64,000 nucleotides of DNA from Acidipropionibacterium jensenii DSM 20535. GTDB lineage: Bacteria; Actinomycetota; Actinomycetes; Propionibacteriales; Propionibacteriaceae. The stretch lies in contig NZ_AUDD01000001.1 of NCBI RefSeq assembly GCF_000425285.1, forward strand, positions 62,001 to 126,000, given 5' to 3'. The notes beneath the pieces were generated by a model, which was not told the origin of the DNA, made no database searches, and worked only from the letters and a program-made list of their open reading frames with translations. Shown one piece after another: positions 563 through 10,825 of this stretch (position 1 is the stretch's first letter; every line of letters starts with the position of its first letter). Position numbers and translations under genes: made by a program.

Positions 563-638
563 GCCTGTGTAGCTCAGTTGGTAGAGCGCCGCTCTTGTAA
601 AGCGATGGTCGCGGGTTCGATTCCTGTCACAGGCTCCA
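563..638 (+). tRNA. tRNA-Thr (anticodon TGT), CCA encoded
   Basis: The full cloverleaf can be drawn. Acceptor arm GCCTGTG (563-569) pairs with CACAGGC (628-634); the D stem is GCTC/GAGC. The anticodon loop CTTGTAA carries TGT at 596-598; the T arm GCGGG-TTCGATT-CCTGT is normal. The discriminator is 635 and CCA (636-638) is encoded. The first anticodon-stem pair is a C-A mismatch. The 3' 48 bases are the attachment site of the adjacent element, whose insertion keeps the tRNA intact. Confidence 0.95.
591..638. repeat. attL core of the tRNA-Thr integrated element
   Basis: The 48 bases covering the anticodon loop, T arm and acceptor 3' strand of tRNA-Thr are repeated without mismatch at 10778-10825. 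Bases on either side differ. The integrase gene starts its 3' end four bases further on, the usual arrangement for tRNA-targeting tyrosine integrases. Confidence 0.92.
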
Positions 639-641
639 TCG

Positions 642-1784
642 TTATCCCTTGTCAACGCCGATTTGACCGGTCACTTCCCCGTCCTGCGTCTTGACCGTCG
701 GCCTCGAATCGGCCTCAAGGGATTCAGCCCTGGCCGCTGTGACCTTCGCCATCACCTGGTCAAGGTCGTCATCGAACAAGTCAGCGTACGTGTCCAGGGT
801 CATGGCCGCACTGGCGTGACCGAGCATCCTCTGCACTGCCAACACCGACGCCCCCGACCGCACCGCCAGACTGGCAGCAGTGTGTCGTAACTCGTGCGGA
901 GTGAGGTAGTCGACCCCCGAGGTGGCCACCGCCCGGTCGAACCAGTCCCGCCGCGCGTTACCCTCCCGAATCGGATTGCCGCCCCTCCCCGGGAAGAGAA
1001 TCTCGTCACGCCGACGGCCCTGCACCTGGTCGGCCATCGCCGAATCGAGGAACCCCGGGTAGGGCACACTGCGCCGCTGATGAGTCTTCACATCGGACCA
1101 CACCATCACCCCATTGATCTCAGTGACCGACTGCTCGACGAGGAGACGCCGGCGGCCGAGGTCCACACTGCCGACCTTCAAGGCGGCGAACTCCCCGAAC
1201 CGTAGACCGGTGTAGGCCAGCAGCCGGACGATCACCGACCTGTCCCCTGCGGCCACAGCCAGCGCCTGCACCTCGACGTCTGACAGGTACCGGCGCTGCT
1301 CCTTCACCTGGCGGGGCAGCACCACCCCCTTGCACGGGTTCACGCCGAGACGCCGCATCGTCACCGCATGATCGCAGATCGACGAGAGCACCCCCTCGTT
1401 CTTCCGCACAGTGCCGGGTGCCCCCGCCATGGCGTTCACCCACGCCTGCACAGCCTCGGTGCTCACCTGCCCCAGCTGCACCTTCCCCCACCTCGGCATG
1501 ATGTGATTCCTGATGACGCCTTCGTTGCGGGTGCGGGTCGATACCCCCCAGTCGCCGTGGGCGTCCAACCATGCCTGCGCCTCGACCGCGACGGTCCGAC
1601 GGGACTTCCGGGGGTCGACCTCGGCACCATTCCACCGGGCTGCCGTGTGCTCGTCCAGCCACTGCTGGCCGTCAACCTTCCGACGGAACAACCGCTTGTG
1701 CTGCCGGTGCTCCTGGTCGTAGTACCGGGCCTCCCAGCGGACCGCCCCCGAACGCTCAGTGAAAACCTTACGAAGACTCGCCAT
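642..1784 (-). CDS. int: Tyrosine-type site-specific integrase
   Basis: A 380-residue phage-type integrase. It has an N-terminal arm-binding-like region rich in aromatic and basic residues (about 1-60), a SAM-like core-binding domain (about 65-150) and a catalytic domain (about 170-350). Catalytic residues are visible: Arg in AYTGLRFGE, the HELRH box, His in MLGHASAAMT and the nucleophilic Tyr in LDTYADL. It lies directly inside attL and its 3' end faces the tRNA. Its ATG overlaps the end of the repressor gene by 17 bases, so the two are probably cotranscribed and the repressor promoter may drive integration. It catalyses integration and, with the AlpA/Xis-like protein, excision at the tRNA-Thr site. 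Confidence 0.95.
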   Translation of the reverse strand: MASLRKVFTERSGAVRWEARYYDQEHRQHKRLFRRKVDGQQWLDEHTAARWNGAEVDPRKSRRTVAVEAQAWLDAHGDWGVSTRTRNEGVIRNHIMPRWGKVQLGQVSTEAVQAWVNAMAGAPGTVRKNEGVLSSICDHAVTMRRLGVNPCKGVVLPRQVKEQRRYLSDVEVQALAVAAGDRSVIVRLLAYTGLRFGEFAALKVGSVDLGRRRLLVEQSVTEINGVMVWSDVKTHQRRSVPYPGFLDSAMADQVQGRRRDEILFPGRGGNPIREGNARRDWFDRAVATSGVDYLTPHELRHTAASLAVRSGASVLAVQRMLGHASAAMTLDTYADLFDDDLDQVMAKVTAARAESLEADSRPTVKTQDGEVTGQIGVDKG

Positions 1785-2178
1785 CGCCCTGGCTGTCGTC
1801 GTGCCAGTAGGCCAACAGCTCGTCCAGCTCGGCCTCTGCAGCTGTCAACTCCGCCCGAGCTGTCCTGATCCGCGCATGGAGTCGGCCCATGGAGTCGATG
1901 GTCTTCCTGTCGCGGATGTTGACGAAGGCTCCGCCGATCTTCTTCGCGGAGTTCTCGATCGAGGTTCCGCGGACCAGCCCTTTGCCCAAGATCTTCTCCA
2001 GAGCCTCCAACTCAGTCCCGAGAAGCTCGCGCTGGCCGATCTCGACGCGGGAGACGATGTTCTGCCTCCACGTGAATCCACGCCCATTCATCGCGGCCGC
2101 GAGCTCGCTCTGGTTCATCCCGGCGGACTTCCTCGCACGCCGGATGTTCGCCCCGATGATCTCGTCGTCTGCTGCCAC
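1768..2178 (-). CDS. XRE/CI-family helix-turn-helix repressor
   Basis: A 136-residue protein with an N-terminal Cro/CI-type helix-turn-helix (about residues 8-65, including IRRARKSAGMNQSELAAAM and VSRVEIGQREL) and a C-terminal charged, helical segment (about 95-128) that could be a short coiled coil. The start is GTG at 2178; an upstream ATG at 2186 is out of frame. It faces away from the AlpA-like gene across a 95-bp control region, the classic repressor/lytic-operon divergence, so it probably represses the structural operon and itself. It shares its 3' end with the integrase start. The DNA site cannot be assigned. Confidence 0.85.
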   Translation of the reverse strand: MAADDEIIGANIRRARKSAGMNQSELAAAMNGRGFTWRQNIVSRVEIGQRELLGTELEALEKILGKGLVRGTSIENSAKKIGGAFVNIRDRKTIDSMGRLHARIRTARAELTAAEAELDELLAYWHDDSQGDGESS

Positions 2179-2201
2179 GGCACCATCCTACTCGAAGATA
2201 C

Positions 2202-2229
2202 TTGCCGATGCTGGGGAGAGAGGTATACG
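2202..2229 (+). promoter_or_regulatory. Candidate promoter of the element's structural operon
   Basis: TTGCCG (2202-2207) and TATACG (2224-2229) are separated by 16 bases and sit 45 bases before the AlpA-like start codon in the divergent region next to the repressor. This matches a moderately good sigma-70-type promoter; assignment is by eye only. Confidence 0.4.
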
Positions 2230-2273
2230 CTGTTACTCATCATCGAGACAGAGCGAGTGAAACGAGGTTCGAG

Positions 2274-2492
2274 ATGACAGCACAGCGGGAAGAGTTCCTC
2301 CGGACGGAGGAGGCCTCCGAGTATTTGGGTGGGATCCCATCGGGGAGCCTGAGGGCCTGGCGACACCAGCGGAAGGGCCCGAAGTCCTTCAAGCTCGGAG
2401 GCGTGGTCCGATACCGCAAGTCCGACCTTGACGCCTGGATCGCCCAGCAGTACGAGACCTCGGTCGTCGGCGATGAAGTCGTGACGTCGTGA
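2274..2492 (+). CDS. AlpA/excisionase-like helix-turn-helix protein
   Basis: A 72-residue protein that is nearly all one winged helix-turn-helix of the MerR/excisionase/AlpA type: FLRTEEASEYLG, then SLRAWRHQRKGP and a wing FKLGGVVRYRKSDLDAWI. The ATG at 2274 has GAGG six bases upstream. It is first in the plus-strand operon and divergent from the CI-like repressor. In satellites the equivalent AlpA/Rpp/Xis proteins switch on excision and replication; in phages such proteins act as excisionases. Either role fits. Confidence 0.75.
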   Translation: MTAQREEFLRTEEASEYLGGIPSGSLRAWRHQRKGPKSFKLGGVVRYRKSDLDAWIAQQYETSVVGDEVVTS

Positions 2493-2863
2493 CCTCCACA
2501 GCAGCATCACCCGGTTGCAACCGACCGGGCCAGCACCGGGGGACCACTGTGCCTGGATCACTGAACTGGTGGCGTACCACGGTCACCGCCTGGTGCGAGC
2601 ACAACAAGGTCTCCCGCTCGACGTCGCAGATCCGCAAGATCGCCCGACGGCTACACGCCATCGGCGTCATGGCCGACATTGACATGCAGATCGGCCGCGA
2701 GATCGACAGGCAGATCGCCCGCATCGACGACCTGGTCGGACTCAACAACATGGTCTCCAACCGTCGCGGCTCACGCATCGCCGACGGGGAGATCGACAAA
2801 GAACTCAAGGAATCAGCCGCCCAGTTCATCGCCGACACCCAGGAGGGCCCCAGTGCCTCATGA
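2489..2863 (+). CDS. Hypothetical element protein
   Basis: A 124-residue protein not recognised. GTG start overlaps the preceding stop (GTGA). The centre holds a tryptophan pair (LNWWRTTVTAWCEHN), then a basic stretch (STSQIRKIARRLHAIG) and a long, charged, predicted-helical tail with repeated Ile-Asp/Arg (IGREIDRQIARIDDLVGLNN). No cysteine cluster, signal or membrane segment. Its place between the Xis-like gene and the replication gene suggests a regulatory or replication accessory role, but this is only positional. Confidence 0.65.
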   Translation: MTSTAASPGCNRPGQHRGTTVPGSLNWWRTTVTAWCEHNKVSRSTSQIRKIARRLHAIGVMADIDMQIGREIDRQIARIDDLVGLNNMVSNRRGSRIADGEIDKELKESAAQFIADTQEGPSAS

Positions 2864-3305
2864 CATGAAAACGGCCCCCCAGCTGCAGGCAACAGCTCAG
2901 GGGGCCACCAAGAAGAACTCGGTACCTTTCGCGAATCATGATACCCCAACCCAGGCCCAGAAGGAACTGGGAGACATCCCCGTTGATCGTCTCCTCGACT
3001 TCCTCGACATGCTCAACTGGTCAGCCCTCCGTCTGCTGCAGGACGCCCTCACAGACGGCGACGTGCACTACTGGCAGCGCCGCGCCCAACAGTTCGAGGA
3101 CGCCCGCCGCAAGCCCGGAGAGTACGTCGGCAAGACCACCCAGGCCGAACGGGAGGCCCGCGACCGCGACCTCGCCGAGACCGCCCTCGCCTGCCGCGCC
3201 AAGGCCCAGTTCGTCCGGCTGTACGGCGACCCCGAACTGCTCGGGTCCGCGTCCATCGTGATCGCAGGGCTCATGGACGACTACCGGCAGGAGGCGGCAG
3301 CATGA
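2853..3305 (+). CDS. Hypothetical element protein
   Basis: A 150-residue protein, not recognised. I chose the GTG at 2853 because AGGAGG (2841-2846) lies six bases upstream; a longer frame exists but lacks a ribosome site. It overlaps the previous gene by 11 bases and ends in an ATGA overlap with the RepA-like gene. The sequence is soluble, helical and charged, with VDRLLDFLDMLNWSALRLL near residue 45 and a basic/acidic middle. Two genes of unknown function directly before the replication ATPase are usual in small phage-derived islands. Confidence 0.65.
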   Translation: MPHDMKTAPQLQATAQGATKKNSVPFANHDTPTQAQKELGDIPVDRLLDFLDMLNWSALRLLQDALTDGDVHYWQRRAQQFEDARRKPGEYVGKTTQAEREARDRDLAETALACRAKAQFVRLYGDPELLGSASIVIAGLMDDYRQEAAA

Positions 3306-4540
3306 CCGAGTCATACGACGGACCCGCCTTCCCCGAAGGCGACGACGAAGCCCGGCAGGCGGAAGCCCGATACAAGGCCCGCCTCCTCGACAAGATCCAC
3401 ACCGGCGACTGGCTCGACCAACACCACTTCGCCCCAATGCAATGGATGGTCCCCGGCCTCGTCCCCGAAGGCTCCGGCCTCCTCGTCGGACCCCCGAAGA
3501 TCGGCAAGTCCTGGTTCGCCCTCGGCCTCGGACTGTCAGTCGCGGCCGGCGGATCAGCACTCGGTGCCATCCACGTGGAGCAGCGCGACGTTCTCTACCT
3601 CGCGCTGGAGGACGGCGACCGGCGGATGCAGACCCGCTGCCGAAAGCTCCTCCCCGACGGTGACCCGATCCCCGAGAACTTCTCCTACATCACCGACCTG
3701 GTGGAGGAGCGGGACATCCTCGCCGTGATGGACTACTGGCTCGACGCTCACAAGGGCGGCCTCGTCATGCTCGACACCCTGGGCAAGGTGATGCCTGCCG
3801 CATCAACCGGGCAGACCCAGTACCAGCGCGACTACAACATCGGAGGCCGACTCAAGAAGGTGGCCGACGACCACCCCGGATCGACAGTGCTCACCGTCCA
3901 CCACAGCCGCAAGGCCGAGAGTGTCGACTTCATGGACTCCACCTCTGGCACCCAGGGCCTCAACGGCGCAGCGGACTTCACCATCGTCCTCCAGCGGCCC
4001 CGAGGCGAGAACGACGCGATCATCGCCATCTCGGGTCGCGATGTCGAGGAGGGATCCTATGCGGCCGTATCCGAGAACGGATCCTGGAGCATTGACGGCG
4101 ACAGCCTCGCTGAAGCGTCACATGCTGCCGCGCAAGCCCGCCTCACATCCGGGGTAGGCGACAAGATGACCCAGATCGTCAGCCTGGTGTCCAGATCGCC
4201 GGAAGGTATCAGTGGCACCGAAGTGGCGAGGGCAACCGGGCTGCGGGAGGACACCGTTAGGCAGGACCTCCGCCGAGCCCTGAAGGACGGGCGCATCCTC
4301 CAGCCGAAGGATCGCGGCAAGTACTTCCCCGTCAACACCGTGTCACAAGTGTCACATGTCACATCGGACGACGAGCCCGGGAATGTGACACGTGACAGAT
4401 GTGACACACATGCAGAGTCCCAGCTGACTGTGGTCCCCGATGATCCGTGCCCCGACTGCAACCTGTCGCTCACCGGCCGCACAGGATCCAACACCTGCTC
4501 GTGGCGACACACCCAAGCACAGCAGGAGGCCGCATCATGA
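3302..4540 (+). CDS. RepA-like AAA/RecA-fold replication ATPase with C-terminal winged helix
   Basis: A 412-residue protein. A RecA-type ATPase (AAA_25/RepA-like, about residues 45-270) has Walker A GPPKIGKS at 63-70 and a Walker B strand ending in VMLDTLGK near 155. A winged-helix domain follows (about 285-345, SRSPEGISGTEVARATG...). The last 40 residues hold a CPDC...C...H pattern that could bind zinc. Proteins of this kind load or act as the helicase in plasmids and mobile islands. The segment of the gene coding the linker after the winged helix contains the symmetric TGTCAC iterons (4341-4406), so this gene probably carries its own origin. ATGA overlaps on both sides show translational coupling. 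Confidence 0.8.
   Translation: MTESYDGPAFPEGDDEARQAEARYKARLLDKIHTGDWLDQHHFAPMQWMVPGLVPEGSGLLVGPPKIGKSWFALGLGLSVAAGGSALGAIHVEQRDVLYLALEDGDRRMQTRCRKLLPDGDPIPENFSYITDLVEERDILAVMDYWLDAHKGGLVMLDTLGKVMPAASTGQTQYQRDYNIGGRLKKVADDHPGSTVLTVHHSRKAESVDFMDSTSGTQGLNGAADFTIVLQRPRGENDAIIAISGRDVEEGSYAAVSENGSWSIDGDSLAEASHAAAQARLTSGVGDKMTQIVSLVSRSPEGISGTEVARATGLREDTVRQDLRRALKDGRILQPKDRGKYFPVNTVSQVSHVTSDDEPGNVTRDRCDTHAESQLTVVPDDPCPDCNLSLTGRTGSNTCSWRHTQAQQEAAS
4341..4406. repeat. Symmetric iteron cluster, candidate replication origin
   Basis: Three TGTCAC motifs (4341, 4350, 4357) are followed after 22 bases by three GTGACA motifs (4385, 4392, 4401). The spacings 9 and 7, then 7 and 9, make the whole block mirror-symmetric about 4373. 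It lies inside the RepA-like gene, in the low-conservation linker. Phages and satellites often place the origin inside the initiator gene. Confidence 0.6.
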
Positions 4541-5085
4541 CCACCCAAACACCCCGGAAGGAGCACCCCGTGAAGTCCACCTGCGCCGTCTGCGGATCCG
4601 TCTGCACCGGCACCTACTGCACCGACCATCGCCCCCACCGACCCGACCACAGACGCGGCAGACCCCACAGACGCGCCGACCTCGGCACCACCGCCTGGAT
4701 GTCACTCTCCCGCCGTGCAAGAGCAGCACAGCCGTTCTGCTCGGTCTGCGGGTCCACCCGAGACCTCCAAGCCGACCACTCACCCAGAGCCTGGGCACGC
4801 CTGAAAGCCGGACGCTCCATCCGCCTCGACGACATCACCGTCGTCTGCCAGCACTGCAACCTGGCAGCCGGCTCATCCCAACCCGGCACGCCCCGCTACA
4901 ACCACTGGGCCGCCGACGACGGCAACCTCAACGCCACCACACCCGACACCACACTCCCCAGGTGGGGGGACACCCCCGACGAACACTCCCCGGCTCCCAC
5001 GGCGCGACCCAGAATTACGCTCTCTGATCGTTGCGTTAATCGTTGCGTTAATGAGCCTGGCGGTTTGGAGGGGGTTTCATGTTGA
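4537..5085 (+). CDS. HNH endonuclease of the packaging module
   Basis: A 182-residue HNH nuclease. An N-terminal CAVCGS...C...H cluster (about 15-35) is followed by a basic region and the HNH core: CSVCGSTRDLQADHSPRAW, then DDITVVCQHCNLAAG (about 68-115), with the His of ADH as catalytic residue. The ATG at 4537 has AGGAGG seven bases upstream and overlaps the previous stop. HNH proteins next to the large terminase are needed for cos cleavage in HK97-type phages and cf-PICIs. No separate small terminase gene is seen between it and the large subunit, so this gene takes that position. Its C-terminus encodes a 12-bp tandem repeat. Confidence 0.85.
   Translation: MTTQTPRKEHPVKSTCAVCGSVCTGTYCTDHRPHRPDHRRGRPHRRADLGTTAWMSLSRRARAAQPFCSVCGSTRDLQADHSPRAWARLKAGRSIRLDDITVVCQHCNLAAGSSQPGTPRYNHWAADDGNLNATTPDTTLPRWGDTPDEHSPAPTARPRITLSDRCVNRCVNEPGGLEGVSC
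5029..5052. repeat. 12-bp tandem repeat at the HNH/terminase junction
   Basis: CGTTGCGTTAAT is present twice back to back, 26 bases before the terminase ATG, encoding the repeated R-C-V-N near the HNH C-terminus. Its position, AT-richer composition and proximity to the terminase make it a possible terminase-binding or cos-flanking site; nothing else supports that. Confidence 0.4.
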
Positions 5086-6542
5086 AGCCTGGTGCGAAGT
5101 CGAGGATTGAGCTGCCGCCGTTGGACACGACGGGGTGGCCGAGGGGCCGGGCGAAGCGGCGGGAGAAGTTCATCCGCGAGTTCGTGCTGACGCCGCGTGG
5201 TGCTGGTGCTCACCAGCGGTTCCGGCTGCGTCCCTGGCAGCGGGAGATCGTGGGGGGTGCGTTCGCGCCGGGGGTCAGAACTGCTTTGTGGTCGTTGCCT
5301 CGTGCGAATGGCAAGACGTCCTTGGCTGCTGCTCTGGCGGTGGCTGAACTGTTCGTGGGGGCCGCGTCTGCTGAGGTGCTGGTCGTCGCCAGTGACGAGC
5401 GGCAGGCGGGTATCACGGTGAATCTGGCGCGTCGGATGATCGAGCTGAACGAGGAGCTGGCCGGTCGGGTCCACATCTACAAAGACCGGATCGAGGTTCC
5501 GGAGACCGATTCGGTGTTGCGTGCTCTGCCTGCCGACCCGAACGCGCTGCACGGCTGGGACCCGTCGTTGTTGATCGTGGACGAACTTCACACTGTCACG
5601 CAGGAGGTCTGGGAGGCGATCACCTCGATGTCGGGCAAGCGTCCGGAGTCGCTGGTCTTGGCGATCTCGACGCCGGCGGCCTCGGAGGATTCGATCATGT
5701 GGCGTTTGGTGAAGCATGGCCGCGACGACGACGACCCGAGTTTCTACCTGAAGGAGTTCGCTGCCCCGACCGGCTGCGACCTGTGGGACCGGGACGCCTG
5801 GGCGGAAGCCAATCCTGCCTTGGGTGACTTTCTGGCCGCCGATGGCATGGCGACTGCCGCGCGCACGTTGCGGGAGCCGGCTTTCCGTCAGCTGCGTCTG
5901 GGGCAGTGGGTTCACTCGGATGTGTCGTGGCTGCCGTGGGGCGCCTGGGGCAAGTGCGTGGGCGGCCAGCGGATTGTCGATGGTGCCCGGGTGTGTCTGG
6001 GGTTCGACGGCTCCTCGCTGTCCGGGAAGGCGGCTGGCGACACCACGGCGCTGGTCGCGGCGACGGTCGAGAAGGTGCCTCACCTGGAGGTGCTGGGCTG
6101 CTGGGACGGTTCGGGTCCGACCCCGCGCGCGGAGGTCGCCGAGGCGGTGGCCGGCGCCTTCGACCGGTTCGATGTTGTCGAGATGTCGGCCGACCCGTGG
6201 GGCTGGCGTTCGGAGCTGGAGGGCTGGGCCGGGCAGTACGGCGACAAGAAGGTGGTGGAGTTCAACACCGGCTATCGGAAGCGGATGTGTCCGGCAACAG
6301 ACCGTTTCTACCAGGCGGTGATGAACGGCGGGCTCACCCATGATGGTGATGACCGGCTGGCAGCGCACATCGACCACGCGACGGTCATTGCCACCCCGCA
6401 GGGTGACATGCTCACGAAACCGAAGAAGATGTCGAAACTGAAGATCGACCTGGCGATTGCTGCGGTGATTGCTTTCGACCGGGCACAATTCCATATCAAC
6501 CACAAGGCGCGGCGTGGCCGCGTGTACTCATTCAAGCGTTAA
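5079..6542 (+). CDS. terL: Phage terminase large subunit
   Basis: A 487-residue packaging motor. The N-terminal ATPase shows RLRPWQREIV (adenine-binding type), a Walker A variant LPRANGKT near residue 75 and Walker B LLIVDELH near 167; the C-terminal RNase H-like nuclease region (about 300-470) has CLGFDGSS and later acidic residues. It pumps and cuts concatemeric DNA into the prohead through the portal. Start ATG at 5079 overlaps the HNH stop by 7 bases. The codon use is looser (more T-ending codons such as GGT and CGT) than the neighbouring replication genes, hinting that the packaging module has a separate ancestry. Confidence 0.92.
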   Translation: MLKPGAKSRIELPPLDTTGWPRGRAKRREKFIREFVLTPRGAGAHQRFRLRPWQREIVGGAFAPGVRTALWSLPRANGKTSLAAALAVAELFVGAASAEVLVVASDERQAGITVNLARRMIELNEELAGRVHIYKDRIEVPETDSVLRALPADPNALHGWDPSLLIVDELHTVTQEVWEAITSMSGKRPESLVLAISTPAASEDSIMWRLVKHGRDDDDPSFYLKEFAAPTGCDLWDRDAWAEANPALGDFLAADGMATAARTLREPAFRQLRLGQWVHSDVSWLPWGAWGKCVGGQRIVDGARVCLGFDGSSLSGKAAGDTTALVAATVEKVPHLEVLGCWDGSGPTPRAEVAEAVAGAFDRFDVVEMSADPWGWRSELEGWAGQYGDKKVVEFNTGYRKRMCPATDRFYQAVMNGGLTHDGDDRLAAHIDHATVIATPQGDMLTKPKKMSKLKIDLAIAAVIAFDRAQFHINHKARRGRVYSFKR

Positions 6543-6552
6543 GGAGATTCTC

Positions 6553-7830
6553 GTGAACTTGTTCGACAAGATGATGCAGCAGTTGGACGGCCCCCAGGGT
6601 CGGTTCTCGCTGCTGGACCGGTACTACTCAGGTGACCAGGCAGTCACATTCCTGAACGCCGACGAGGCCGAACTGTTGAACCGGAAACTGTTCCGAATGG
6701 CGGTGAACTTTCCGAGGCTGGCGGTGGACTCGCTGGCGGAGCGGCTGAGGGTGACGGGGCTGCGTGTCGATGGTGCCGCCGATGCCCGGCTGTGGTCGGA
6801 CTGGAAAGCCAACAACCTGGACGAGATGGCGGCGGTGGCGCACCGGGAGGCCCTGACCTTGGGCGAGTGCCCGGTGATCGTGTGGGCCGACGATCAGGGC
6901 AACCCGCGTGTGTCGGTGGAGTCCCCGCACCAGTGCGTGGTCCGCCGCGACCCTGCAACCCGTGAGGTGGTGGGCGCTCTGAAACGCTGGTCCAACGAGG
7001 ACGCCGGCCAGACCTACGCGGTGGAGTATCTGCCTGACCAGATCGTCTGGTTCGTTGCACAGTCCGCTGGTGCTGCTGGTGGCTTCCAGGCGGTCCGCAA
7101 GGTCGACAATCCGCTGGGTGTGGTGCCGGTGGTGGACCTGCGCAACTCGGATCGACTGCTGGGTCCTGGGGCCTCGGAGATCGATGATCTGATCCCGCTG
7201 GTCGACGCGCTCGACAAGCTGCTGCTGGACATGTTGACGACCTCCGAGTCGGCGGCGCGTCCGCGACGGTGGGCGACGGGGATCACGCTGGCGGAGGACC
7301 TCGACTCCGACGATCCTAACGAGTCCTCGGCTCTGTCCAACCCGTTCCCCGAGGGCGACAAGATGATGATCTCGGAGTCGGCCGAATCGAAGTTCGGGCA
7401 GCTGCCAGGGGCTGACCTGTCCGCCTACCAGGACGCGGTGAACGTGACCCTCCAGCAGATCATGGCGATGTCCGCGCTGCCGGCGCACATGGTCGGCATC
7501 ACGGCCGCGAATCCGACATCGGCGGATGCTCTGCGCGCTGCCGAGTCGGGACTGACAGCCCGTGCCGAGGCCCGTCAGGTGACGTTCGGTCGAGCTTGGG
7601 AGCAGGTGGCCGCCCTGATGGTTGCGGTCCGCACGGGGGCCGATCCCAGAGCCATTCACACGTCGGTGGACTGGGCACCGGCCGACACCCGGAGCGCGGC
7701 CCAGGAGGCTGACGCGACCGTCAAATTGTTCCAGGCCGGCATCCTGCCGCGCCGGTTCGCATTGCAGAAGCTCGGCTATTCGGCCGAGGACATCGCACAG
7801 ATCGAGGCCACCCCGGCCTCAACCAACTGA
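6553..7830 (+). CDS. Phage portal protein (SPP1 Gp6-like)
   Basis: A 425-residue portal of the Gp6/SPP1 type, which forms the dodecameric ring at the head vertex and docks the terminase. Start GTG at 6553 has AAGGAG at 6541-6546, just after the terminase stop; an upstream ATG lies inside the terminase gene and lacks a ribosome site. Family-like features include the N-terminal LLDRYYSGDQ and MAVNFPRLAVDSLAERLRV, a central LVDALDKLLLDMLTTSE and C-terminal SALPAHMVGITAANPTSADA. Its length is normal for the family. Confidence 0.9.
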   Translation: MNLFDKMMQQLDGPQGRFSLLDRYYSGDQAVTFLNADEAELLNRKLFRMAVNFPRLAVDSLAERLRVTGLRVDGAADARLWSDWKANNLDEMAAVAHREALTLGECPVIVWADDQGNPRVSVESPHQCVVRRDPATREVVGALKRWSNEDAGQTYAVEYLPDQIVWFVAQSAGAAGGFQAVRKVDNPLGVVPVVDLRNSDRLLGPGASEIDDLIPLVDALDKLLLDMLTTSESAARPRRWATGITLAEDLDSDDPNESSALSNPFPEGDKMMISESAESKFGQLPGADLSAYQDAVNVTLQQIMAMSALPAHMVGITAANPTSADALRAAESGLTARAEARQVTFGRAWEQVAALMVAVRTGADPRAIHTSVDWAPADTRSAAQEADATVKLFQAGILPRRFALQKLGYSAEDIAQIEATPASTN

Positions 7831-7838
7831 GGAGAAAC

Positions 7839-8333
7839 ATGATGGATAAGACGACCGACGAGCAGAACGAGACGGCAGAGACCGAGGCACCGGGAATTGC
7901 CCCTGAGCCGTCCGTGGAGGGCCCTGGGATCGATCAGGAGCCCGAACCCGGGGAAACCCCCGCTGACGACAGCGGAGCCGCTGAGAGCCACCAGGAGGCG
8001 GAGCCTGAGATGTTTCCCGCCGACGTGGTCCACAAGCTGCGCGACGAGGCCGCCAGGTACCGCACCCGGGCGAAGGACCGCGACGACCTGGCACTGGAAC
8101 TGTTCACCGCGAAGGTGGCCGCGACCGGCCGGCTGGCCGACCCCACCGACCTGCCCTACGACGAGGGGCTTCTCAATGACTCGGCAGCACTCGACCAGGC
8201 CATCGGAGAACTCCTCCACGCCAAGCCGCACCTGGCATCCCGTGTCCCGCACGGCTCGGTCGGGCAGGGGCCACGATCCGGAGACGCTGGAGCAGTGGAT
8301 CTCGCGTCGATGCTCAGGGCCAGGGCCAGCTGA
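7839..8333 (+). CDS. Scaffold-like head assembly protein
   Basis: A 164-residue acidic protein. The first 55 residues are rich in Glu, Pro, Thr and Ala with no hydrophobic core, followed by a helical segment VVHKLRDEAARYRTRAKDRD (about 65-85) and LALELFTAKVAATGRL. This composition and the position between portal and capsid are typical of phage scaffolding proteins. No prohead protease precedes it, unlike many HK97-type phages. Start ATG 7839 sits 9 bases after the portal stop, with GGAG upstream. Confidence 0.65.
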   Translation: MMDKTTDEQNETAETEAPGIAPEPSVEGPGIDQEPEPGETPADDSGAAESHQEAEPEMFPADVVHKLRDEAARYRTRAKDRDDLALELFTAKVAATGRLADPTDLPYDEGLLNDSAALDQAIGELLHAKPHLASRVPHGSVGQGPRSGDAGAVDLASMLRARAS

Positions 8334-8397
8334 GGAGGAGCGACGATTCTGGGATCGGATCACCCACGACGAATTAACCCGCCGATTCCATTTCTGA

Positions 8398-8425
8398 TTG
8401 ACACGTCAACTAGTTGATCTACAAT
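8398..8425 (+). promoter_or_regulatory. Strong sigma-70-type promoter overlapped by two palindromes
   Basis: TTGACA (8398-8403) and TACAAT (8420-8425) are 16 bases apart, close to perfect consensus and unusual in this GC-rich DNA. The -35 box is half of the inverted repeat TTGACACGTCAA (8398-8409) and the spacer holds the palindrome CAACTAGTTG (8407-8416), so a dimeric regulator could occlude it. It would drive the major capsid gene separately from the operon. Confidence 0.65.
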
Positions 8426-8427
8426 GA

Positions 8428-8452
8428 GGGGTGAGCCCTGGTGGCTCACCCC
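8428..8452 (+). terminator. Perfect hairpin between scaffold and capsid genes
   Basis: GGGGTGAGCC (8428-8437), a five-base loop and GGCTCACCCC (8443-8452) form a ten-pair stem followed by TTGTTGTG. It can stop upstream transcripts. The start point expected from the promoter at 8398-8425 falls inside the left arm (about 8432), so transcripts starting there would have a shortened stem. Confidence 0.6.
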
Positions 8453-8510
8453 TTGTTGTGTGTTCCTGGCGGGCACCGATCCCACATTGTTCCCCAGTCA
8501 GGAGATTCCC

Positions 8511-9386
8511 ATGGTCGCATCGACCACCACCATTCCCCAGCTCACCGCAGAGCAGGTTCAGAAGGTCCTCGTCCAGCCCCTTCAGGACGCCAGCGTCTTC
8601 CTCGCAGCCGGCCCCCGCATGTTCGACACCGCCGGCCCCATCCGCATTCCCAAGGCCCCCGTCGGTGATGACTCCAAGCTCACCTGGGTGGGTGAGAATG
8701 AGCAGATCCCCGAGGCCGACTACCAGGTTTCCGAACTGGAGCTGATGCCCTCCACGATGAAGTCGGTGAAGGTCCTCACCCGCTACTCCAACGAGCTGTC
8801 CCGGCAGTCGTTCGTCTCCCTCGACCAGGTGCTGAAGGACCGCCTGGTCGCCGACGTTGCGAACAAGATCGACCTGCAGCTGCTCTCCGCTACCGGTGAC
8901 GGTATCACCACCCCGAAGGGACTGTTTGCCTACGCCGGCACCCAGACCGTTGACGCGGCCGGCCCGATGTCCCTCGACGTGCTTCTGGACGCCTGGGGCA
9001 AGGCCCTGGCCGCCAACGTCAACATGGCCGCCCTGAAGTGGCTGGTCACCCCCGGCGACTTCGTCAAGCTGCGGAAGCTCAAGGACGGGCAGCAGCGCTA
9101 CCTGCTCCAGCCCGACCCGACCGCCGACGCCGTGTTCCGCCTGTTCGGGTCCCCGGTGATCGTGACCGGCCGAATCCCCGACACCACCGACTCGAAGCCG
9201 GCCGGCCGTGCCGCCCTCGCCGACTTCAGTCAGATCGCCGTCGCCCGTGACCTCGCACCGAGTGTGACGATCCTGTCGGAGCGGTTCGCCGACTACGACC
9301 AGCAGGCCATTCGTGTCGTGACCCGTTACGACGCGGCCCCGATCAACCCGCAGGCCATCGTCACCATCGGCGGGATCACCCGCTGA
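8511..9386 (+). CDS. Major capsid protein, HK97 fold
   Basis: A 291-residue capsid protein of the HK97-fold phage capsid family. After a short N-arm come segments typical of this family: IRIPKAPVGDDSKLTWVGEN (N-terminal beta strands leading to the E-loop), VKVLTRYSNELSRQS (spine helix region), DGITTPKGLF, and the P-domain/A-domain portion WLVTPGDFVKLRKLKDG with the late VRVVTRYDAAPINPQA-like strand. No long N-terminal delta domain is fused, in line with a separate scaffold gene. ATG at 8511 is preceded by AGGAG (8500-8504); the longer open frame begins inside the promoter hairpin and is rejected. Confidence 0.88.
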   Translation: MVASTTTIPQLTAEQVQKVLVQPLQDASVFLAAGPRMFDTAGPIRIPKAPVGDDSKLTWVGENEQIPEADYQVSELELMPSTMKSVKVLTRYSNELSRQSFVSLDQVLKDRLVADVANKIDLQLLSATGDGITTPKGLFAYAGTQTVDAAGPMSLDVLLDAWGKALAANVNMAALKWLVTPGDFVKLRKLKDGQQRYLLQPDPTADAVFRLFGSPVIVTGRIPDTTDSKPAGRAALADFSQIAVARDLAPSVTILSERFADYDQQAIRVVTRYDAAPINPQAIVTIGGITR

Positions 9387-9670
9387 TGTCCGATCCCACC
9401 GGCGTGGTGGACGGCAGGGCGGTGGAATTGTCCACCGCCCTGGTGAGGTCGTACACCCGAGGTGCCGGTTTCACCACCGTCCTGAACGGCAGGAAGGTCG
9501 AGCAGATCGCCGACGACATTGTCGCTGTGATCGACATGGTGGCCGCCCGTATCGAGGCGAACCCTGACCTGCTGGAGCAGCGGTCCGGGCCGTTCAGCAC
9601 GGCAGCATTCGCAGGGTTCCTGCTCCCCGAGCTGGCCGTCCTGAACCGCTACCGGGTTGGGGCCCTGTGA
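9386..9670 (+). CDS. Putative head-tail connector protein
   Basis: A 94-residue, mostly helical protein starting in a TGATG overlap with the capsid stop. Its position directly after the capsid, its size and the helical pattern (IADDIVAVIDMVAARIEANP) are usual for gp6/gp15-type connector adaptors that extend the portal ring. There is no distinctive motif, so function rests mostly on gene order. Confidence 0.6.
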   Translation: MSDPTGVVDGRAVELSTALVRSYTRGAGFTTVLNGRKVEQIADDIVAVIDMVAARIEANPDLLEQRSGPFSTAAFAGFLLPELAVLNRYRVGAL

Positions 9671-9990
9671 TGCAGACCGTCAAACTTCAGCGCTTCGTCT
9701 CTTCCTCCGGCCATACTGGCACCGTGTGGGCCGACCCCGTCGATATGCTCATCAACGGCTGGTCACCCGTCATGTCCACCGAGGACCCGACCACCGGCCA
9801 GTTCCGCAAGATCAGCCGCAGGAACCTGTTCATCAGACATCTGCCTGACGGCCCGGCCCCCACATCCAAGGACCAGATCCTGATGGACGGCCGCACCTGG
9901 CAGATCGCCGGTGACCCGTCCGACTGGAATCACGGCCCCTACAATCACCGGCCCGGCTGGGTGGTCACCATCCAGTACATAGCCGGCTAG
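9670..9990 (+). CDS. Putative head closure / head-tail stopper protein
   Basis: A 106-residue protein with beta-rich content (FIRHLPDGPAP, ILMDGRTWQIAGDPSDW, WVVTIQYIAG) resembling head-completion (gp16/stopper-like) proteins. It starts at ATG 9670 in a one-base overlap, with GTG 9667 as alternative. It is the last structural gene; tail genes should follow in a phage but do not. Its final 18 codons and stop are duplicated directly downstream. Confidence 0.6.
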   Translation: MQTVKLQRFVSSSGHTGTVWADPVDMLINGWSPVMSTEDPTTGQFRKISRRNLFIRHLPDGPAPTSKDQILMDGRTWQIAGDPSDWNHGPYNHRPGWVVTIQYIAG

Positions 9991-10073
9991 ACCTGGGCAT
10001 GCCAAGACGCCCCTACAATCACCGGCCCGGCTGGGTGGTCACCATCCAGTACATAGCCGGCTAGACCTGGGCA
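9935..10073. repeat. 65-bp direct duplication of the 3' end of the last head gene
   Basis: Bases 9935-9999 (last codons and stop of the head-closure gene plus nine bases) recur exactly at 10009-10073, separated by nine bases. Identity without a single change suggests a recent tandem duplication or a repair scar, located exactly where a phage would continue into its tail module. Confidence 0.9.
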
Positions 10074-10234
10074 AAAGACCCCCAATGCTCAGTTCGACGA
10101 CACAGCCGCCGAACCCCCACCCAGCAGCCACCCATGAAAAATCGAGGTTAACACCGGTTATTCCATCAGGGCCGGTGAAGGCAGCGAGCATTTTTGAATT
10201 GTTGGTGTGAAGACCTGCCTGCGTCCAGCGCGTC
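10074..10234. other. Non-coding spacer after the head genes
   Basis: No reading frame with a ribosome site is seen. Composition is AT-richer than the surroundings (TTTTTGAATTGTTGG near 10190-10205). It could hold a promoter for the downstream palindrome array, but no clear -35/-10 pair is visible. Confidence 0.4.
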
Positions 10235-10660
10235 GAGCCCCCCGGGAATCCTCCTCAGGCCCCGGGGGGCTCTTCACGCGCGCGAGGGGACCAACGCTTT
10301 CCGATCGATTGATCGGAAAGCGGTCGATGAGGGCTCTTCACGCGCGCGAGGGAACCAACTCGGAAATTCCGAGTTAGCTTCAAGGTCCCTGGGGTTCCCT
10401 CGCGCGCGCGAGGGAACCCCCCGCTCGGGAAAGTGTCCAATCTGGACACTTTCGGTTCCCTCGCGCGCGCGAGGGAACCCCACCATCCCCGTTCCGATCG
10501 ATTGATCGGAACGGCCGACGCCCGCGCGCCCGAGGGGACCACTCGCAGGAGCGAAAGCATCAAATGATACTTTCGGGGCTCCTCACGCGCACGGGAACCC
10601 CAGATGCTTTCCGATCAATTGATCGGAAAGCATCCCGTCGCCCGCACCGGACGCGTACCC
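10235..10660. repeat. Alternating palindrome array with about 61-bp period (CRISPR-like spacing)
   Basis: Seven GC-rich repeat units end near 10292, 10356, 10418, 10479, 10540, 10599 and 10659. The best two are perfect palindromes: 10391-10420 (30 bp, GGGGTTCCCTCGCG and its complement) and 10454-10479 (26 bp). Each of the six intervals is itself an inverted repeat: arms at 10295-10306/10311-10322, 10357-10365/10367-10375, 10429-10439/10443-10453, 10489-10499/10504-10514, 10552-10562/10565-10575 (one mismatch) and 10603-10618/10619-10634 (perfect 32 bp). Intervals 1, 4 and 6 share TTCCGATC(G/A)ATTGATCGGAA. A leading hairpin GAGCCCCCCGGG/CCCGGGGGGCTC (10235-10272) opens the array. No cas gene is near. 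It may be a multi-hairpin RNA, a protein-binding array or an origin. Confidence 0.9.
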
Positions 10661-10777
10661 CCCTTCGGCCTTAAATCGGCCTCGCGCGGTGCAAAACGTG
10701 GCATCATCCAGCAGCAAGCAAACACACAGACAGCGTTGTCAGGTGGGAAATGAGCCCGGTACTAGGACAGCTTGAAT

Positions 10778-10825
10778 GCTCTTGTAAAGCGATGGTCGCG
10801 GGTTCGATTCCTGTCACAGGCTCCA
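10778..10825. repeat. attR: 48-bp copy of the tRNA-Thr 3' half
   Basis: Identical to 591-638. It is a tRNA fragment lacking the acceptor 5' strand and D arm, so it is not a functional tRNA. It marks the right end of the element. Confidence 0.92.

Follow-up and report, generated by a model that had tools for sequence, protein, structure and literature searches.

What is the nature of an array in which GC-rich repeats alternate with intervals that are themselves inverted repeats, on a unit like that of a type I-E CRISPR array? Such an array, non-coding and composed of seven repeats and six intervals with a unit near 61 bp, occupies positions 10235-10663 of the window, by which we mean the whole 64-kb stretch of Acidipropionibacterium jensenii DNA analyzed here. 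It is a real and recurrent feature and is not an ordinary CRISPR, and four related arrays in the same slot of other satellites suggest a decoy against host CRISPR immunity.

The array is carried by a capsid-forming satellite

The array resides in an integrated element (591-10825) bounded by att cores that are identical over 48 bp: attL (591-638, plus strand), which is the 3' part of a tRNA-Thr gene (563-638), and attR (10778-10825, plus strand). A tyrosine integrase is encoded on the minus strand (642-1784; PF00589, 1.5e-23; phrog_1), followed on the plus strand by an AAA_25 replication-type ATPase (3302-4540; PF13481, 3.8e-25), an HNH endonuclease (4447-5085; phrog_144, 4.3e-9), the terminase large subunit (5079-6542), the portal (6553-7830), an HK97-type major capsid protein (8484-9386; PF05065, 8.2e-41) and a head-tail adaptor (9667-9990; phrog_763), the final gene before the array. 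The element also encodes a regulator and a probable scaffold, the latter assigned by position only, and neither tail nor lysis genes were recognized within 591-10825. The carrier is a capsid-forming, PICI-like satellite, sharing with the capsid-forming PICIs the integrase, HNH endonuclease, terminase, portal, capsid and adaptor as well as the lack of recognizable tail or lysis genes; it differs from them in the array, as the published description of that group, read through PMC10690885, mentions nothing comparable. Both the att cores and the gene content bear out the earlier note in placing the array in the attR-side slot, after the last head gene and before attR. Directly upstream of the array, a 74-bp perfect tandem duplication (9935-10073) includes the 3' end of the adaptor gene.

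Palindromic repeats alternate with palindromic intervals

The array opens with a hairpin of 12-13-bp GC-rich arms (10235-10272), the 3' arm of which enters repeat 1. The repeats begin at about 10267, 10331, 10391, 10454, 10514, 10575 and 10636, with successive spacings near 64, 62, 61, 61, 61 and 60 bp. R3 (10391-10420) and R4 (10454-10482), to which no strand is assigned, are perfect palindromes with 15- and 13-bp arms, respectively. R1 (10267-10295), R2 (10331-10359), the divergent R5 (10514-10542) and R6 (10575-10601), which has a 2-bp deletion, are imperfect palindromes; these four and the degenerate R7 (10636-10663), delimited from the sequence, are placed on the minus strand, the I-E-like orientation for R1. 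All six intervals contain an inverted repeat, none of them assigned to a strand: palindrome 1 (10295-10322) has 12-bp arms and a 4-nt loop, palindrome 2 (10357-10375) has 9-bp arms and overlaps the end of R2, palindromes 3 (10429-10453) and 4 (10489-10514) have 11-bp arms, palindrome 5 (10552-10575) has 11-bp arms with one mismatch, and palindrome 6 (10603-10634) has 16-bp arms that form a perfect 32-bp palindrome. The seven GC-rich repeats at a period of about 61 bp and their palindromic intervals are thus as the earlier note described them, except that only palindrome 6, rather than two intervals, is perfect and loopless. No second cluster of comparable palindromes and repeats exists within the 64-kb window.

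RNA folding, which the earlier note had called for, showed both strands to be more stably folded than dinucleotide shuffles by about 17 standard deviations (z of -16.7 for the plus strand and -17.3 for the minus strand). Searches of Rfam at gathering and permissive thresholds returned no credible family, a result that is uninformative because the host I-E array, used as a positive control, was equally unrecognised. Several conventional identities were considered and rejected: a coding repeat, as the 60-64-bp unit does not keep to multiples of three and the reading through on either strand is fortuitous; REP/BIME elements, as the unit is not dispersed over the host genome, where it matches only at the array itself; and a type III toxin-antitoxin locus, as the array slot holds no separate toxin-candidate reading frame.

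Related arrays occupy the same slot in other satellites

Relatives of the satellite were sought by capsid protein or profile, with the capsid protein of the window as query, among viral contigs and across genomes of the family, order and class, and their loci were screened for periodic repeats and palindrome clusters. Four further arrays were found in the same slot, 0.4-1.1 kb downstream of the capsid gene, in three genomes and one metagenome. The array of genome G071, from the family of the window host (L106:8623-9118), has the 28-nt repeat TTTGCCACCCCGCACCCGTGGGCGGYCT, 33-nt intervals and 61-bp units throughout, apart from a 6-bp deletion within one repeat. That of G002, from the genus of the window host (L118:8205-8415, minus strand), has the repeat GGTGATCCCCACCTCGCGCGGGCCGGAC and units of 61 and 61 bp, and that of G536, from a different family of the same class (L220/L383), has GGTGCTCTCCGCTGCGCACGGGCCGGAC and units of 61, 60 and 60 bp. 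The metagenomic array, L408, has GTGAGCCCTGCGCACGCGTGGGAGTCAC and units of 61, 61, 61, 61 and 62 bp. Repeat sequences differ among the five arrays, the unit is again 60-62 bp in the four relatives, and palindromic spacers recur. The repeats of G002 and G536 agree at 22 of their 28 positions, their carriers belonging to different bacterial families, and GCACCCGTGGGCG is common to the G071 and L408 repeats, in register. We consider it probable that all five arrays belong to a single kind. The earlier note would have been refuted by relatives in which cas genes accompany ordinary spacers; the relatives instead keep the ~61-bp period and the palindromes, and no cas genes were found alongside them.

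The module is optional, since a second satellite of G071, read directly, has no array in this slot. Most satellite loci scanned are also without one, an absence that is not always informative given the many short flanks. Searches of phage and plasmid sequences with the window array, and of phage sequences with the G071 and G002 arrays, returned nothing except the tRNA part, and the window repeat and palindrome cores found the array among viral contigs only in the same strain. A loose two-repeat pattern run over viral contigs and the family of G536 gave chance matches and no new array; its only periodic matches, spaced 57, 63 or 66 bp, look like coding repeats. Two loci that seemed periodic or palindrome-rich (L191 and L202) were rejected as having no repeat-spacer array.

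Other features of these satellites emerged from the same loci. The G002 satellite (L118) and that of G028 (L191) share a GGTTCAACTCCTCTCTCGCGCAC stretch near the downstream end, probably a shared tRNA attachment site. Four 16-bp palindromes of type GTGTCACCCATGACAC lie apparently inside a reading frame of another satellite (L385, 5671-5763) and resemble iterons within a replication initiator gene, and about ten hairpins surround the junction of the portal gene with the gene after it in a Tsukamurella plasmid satellite (L384, 4154-4538).

The palindromic spacers are not due to chance

A single scoring function was applied to the 23 intervals of the arrays and to 392 I-E spacers of the same bacterial family. 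An arm score of at least 8 was reached by 12/23 array intervals against 1/392 ordinary spacers (Fisher p 3.7e-16), which bears out, for this family, the earlier statement that genuine CRISPR spacers are not palindromes, and the palindromic spacers of the arrays are not a product of chance. Non-palindromic intervals do occur, one in G071 and two in G536. Comparison of related spacers identified two compensatory pairs between spacers 1 and 4 of the window and one between spacers 1 and 6, the core of palindrome 4 being common to palindromes 1 and 6 by way of these pairs, and two further pairs between spacers 1 and 4 of G071. The compensatory changes replace one Watson-Crick pair with another, and the unpaired differences fall at the stem end or in the loop. 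In G071 and G536 a palindrome also runs into the adjoining repeat and alters it, as in the L106 repeat that starts TCTG rather than TTTG and in repeat 4 of G536. The paired changes and the spread of palindromes into repeats indicate that palindromicity is maintained, either by selection or by arm-to-arm correction.

Kinship with type I-E CRISPR is moderate

The window host encodes a complete type I-E operon (Cas3, Cse1, Cse2, Cas7, Cas5, Cas6e and Cas1) on contig C28, and both C28 and C2 carry I-E arrays of GTGTTCCCCGCGAATGCGGGGATGAGCC whose unit measures 61 bp. These arrays, with 23 exact repeats at G000:C2:205925-207293 and three at G000:C28:5-154, lie at contig ends and are probably one array split by assembly. 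The earlier remark that no cas genes are near is accordingly true locally, as none was detected alongside the array among the satellite genes tested, and does not extend to the host, whose operon and two arrays lie on other contigs. The satellite array resembles the host array in its 28-nt hairpin repeat, 33-nt interval and 61-bp unit, and differs in its palindromic intervals, degenerate repeats, other sequence and lack of adjacent cas genes. The 28-nt repeat/33-nt spacer geometry is exact in G071 and L408 (apart from one 34-nt spacer) and holds for 372/392 of the family I-E spacers; the unit agrees with that of I-E arrays in the window (61 +/- 3) and in G002 and G536 (60-61).

At the level of sequence, similarity of the array repeats to I-E repeats exceeded that of palindrome-preserving shuffles in four of the five arrays (p values of 0.006, 0.24, 0.002, 0.023 and 0.004; Fisher over all five 2.6e-6), values that are optimistic because the repeat limits were chosen by the analyst. 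The reverse-complement orientation scored better in three of the four significant arrays. Array repeats did not rise above background when scanned with a PWM or a covariance model built from 16-17 I-E repeats of the family, the G071 repeat taken alone has no I-E similarity, and neither Cas1 nor CasE was found in the G071 host. Judged from sequence comparison, kinship to I-E repeats thus appears moderate. Given the negative scans, the G071 repeat and the G071 host, we class the array neither with CRISPR arrays nor with the known RNA anti-CRISPRs (Racrs). Protospacers that would mark the spacers as foreign DNA were absent from phage and plasmid records, with no convincing ones in the loci examined, and ordinary host spacers had no convincing match in the satellites.

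A proposed CRISPR decoy and competing explanations

We tentatively propose that the satellite array is a mimic or a descendant of a type I-E CRISPR array and acts as a decoy, a reading to which we assign somewhat less than an even chance. The wider claim is more speculative: a recurrent class in actinobacterial phage satellites, in which self-folding spacers give rise to blank crRNAs that jam type I-E complexes without self-targeting. What underlies both is the observed alternation of conserved ~28-nt imperfect-hairpin repeats with ~33-nt intervals, kept self-complementary, on a ~61-bp I-E unit. The array would be transcribed, probably from the minus strand and antisense to the head genes, and Cas6e and Cascade subunits of the host would bind or cleave its units; the spacer would fold on itself to leave a crRNA-like product unable to pair with a target, and its hairpin might also block full Cas7 loading. 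Such a blank crRNA decoy may lower I-E interference as RNA anti-CRISPRs do, without targeting self. RNA anti-CRISPRs imitate repeats and thereby bind Cas proteins (PMC10651486), and RacrIF1 interacts with Cas6f and Cas7f, forming an aberrant subcomplex (PMC10651486, PMC11656645).

The decoy is the best reading because it joins the ~61-nt units, the hairpin repeats, the self-folding spacers, the satellite setting and the I-E host. A minus-strand RNA is weakly favored, as most of the divergent repeats fold better on that strand through G-U pairs. Against the decoy, R1 folds better on the plus strand and a G-rich strand favors G-U pairing in any case, a simple scan found no promoter, and known RNA anti-CRISPRs are solitary, lie close in sequence to the host repeat and have no need of palindromic spacers; the negative model scans, the G071 repeat and its host without Cas1 or CasE weigh on the same side.

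Structured RNA and a CRISPR-derived array, both among the readings listed in the earlier note, survive the analysis, while no evidence was found for the replication or packaging role also listed there. It is possible, if rather doubtful, that the array is a structured non-coding RNA unrelated to CRISPR, its more than a dozen hairpins ending or stabilizing head-operon transcripts or titrating another RNA-binding protein of the host or helper. The extreme folding of both strands, the placement of all five arrays behind the last head gene and the terminator-like GC hairpins before the arrays of the window, G071, G536 and L408 fit such a role, which nevertheless leaves unexplained why five elements keep a ~61-bp unit in which repeats are constant and intervals vary, why the repeats resemble those of I-E and why most scanned satellite loci lack an array. 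That last point also counts against an element acting as DNA, with palindromes that extrude cruciforms or bind protein for replication, packaging or recombination near attR, as an essential cis site should be universal and the second G071 element is among those without one. The palindromes moreover vary within and between arrays with no common binding site apparent, bar the cores shared within one array. A DNA-level role is unlikely, even though compensatory changes from Watson-Crick to Watson-Crick pairs, loopless palindromes and A/T-rich centers are in keeping with it.

The analysis neither establishes nor excludes a degraded CRISPR whose spacers were replaced, as the kinship to I-E repeats is only moderate. 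We regard as quite improbable the specific form in which a functionless remnant of an ordinary CRISPR array was captured by the satellite and replication template switching made the spacers and some repeats palindromic. The I-E geometry, the degenerate repeats and the palindromes that invade repeats in L106 and G536, as expected of template-switch correction, agree with this history, but it sits poorly with five elements sharing one slot and a conserved unit length, and no such trend exists in the 392 ordinary spacers. Highly improbable is a working mini-array that would turn the Cas proteins of the host against competing phages, a strategy known from some archaeal viruses: a few intervals in G071 and G536 are indeed non-palindromic, yet self-complementary guides should work poorly, the array repeats differ from host repeats, and the searches described above yielded neither matches beyond the tRNA part nor convincing protospacers.

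Comparison with RNA anti-CRISPRs and mini-arrays

As proposed here, the satellite arrays share with RNA anti-CRISPRs and solitary repeat units (PMC10651486) the principle of a mobile-element RNA that imitates CRISPR repeats, and the window host has a complete system of the mimicked subtype, I-E, whereas Cas1 and CasE were not found in the G071 host. RNA anti-CRISPRs are recognized as a solitary repeat near a known CRISPR repeat, whereas the satellite has an array of seven with weak similarity, its repeats strongly diverged from those of the host. Viral mini-arrays, too, alternate repeats with spacers on a mobile element and lack cas genes; they hold only one or two spacers, their repeats are the same as those of the host and their spacers mostly match related viruses (PMC11656645), none of which applies to the satellite arrays. 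No such array is described in the literature searched on palindromic or self-complementary spacers, Racrs, mini-arrays and satellites, with most subscription papers outside its scope.

If the decoy proposal is correct, RNA-based anti-CRISPRs would extend from solitary repeats to whole arrays, self-complementary spacers would offer a way to guide-less crRNAs, and phage satellites would gain a counter-defense of a kind that the literature searched does not report for them. Should the CRISPR link fail, the array would still represent a non-coding module of extreme structure that recurs in a little-studied group of satellites. Separately, single exact I-E-type repeats with no larger array of that pattern are present in L150 (G038) and in genomes G196, G129 and G188, and are candidate solitary repeat units.
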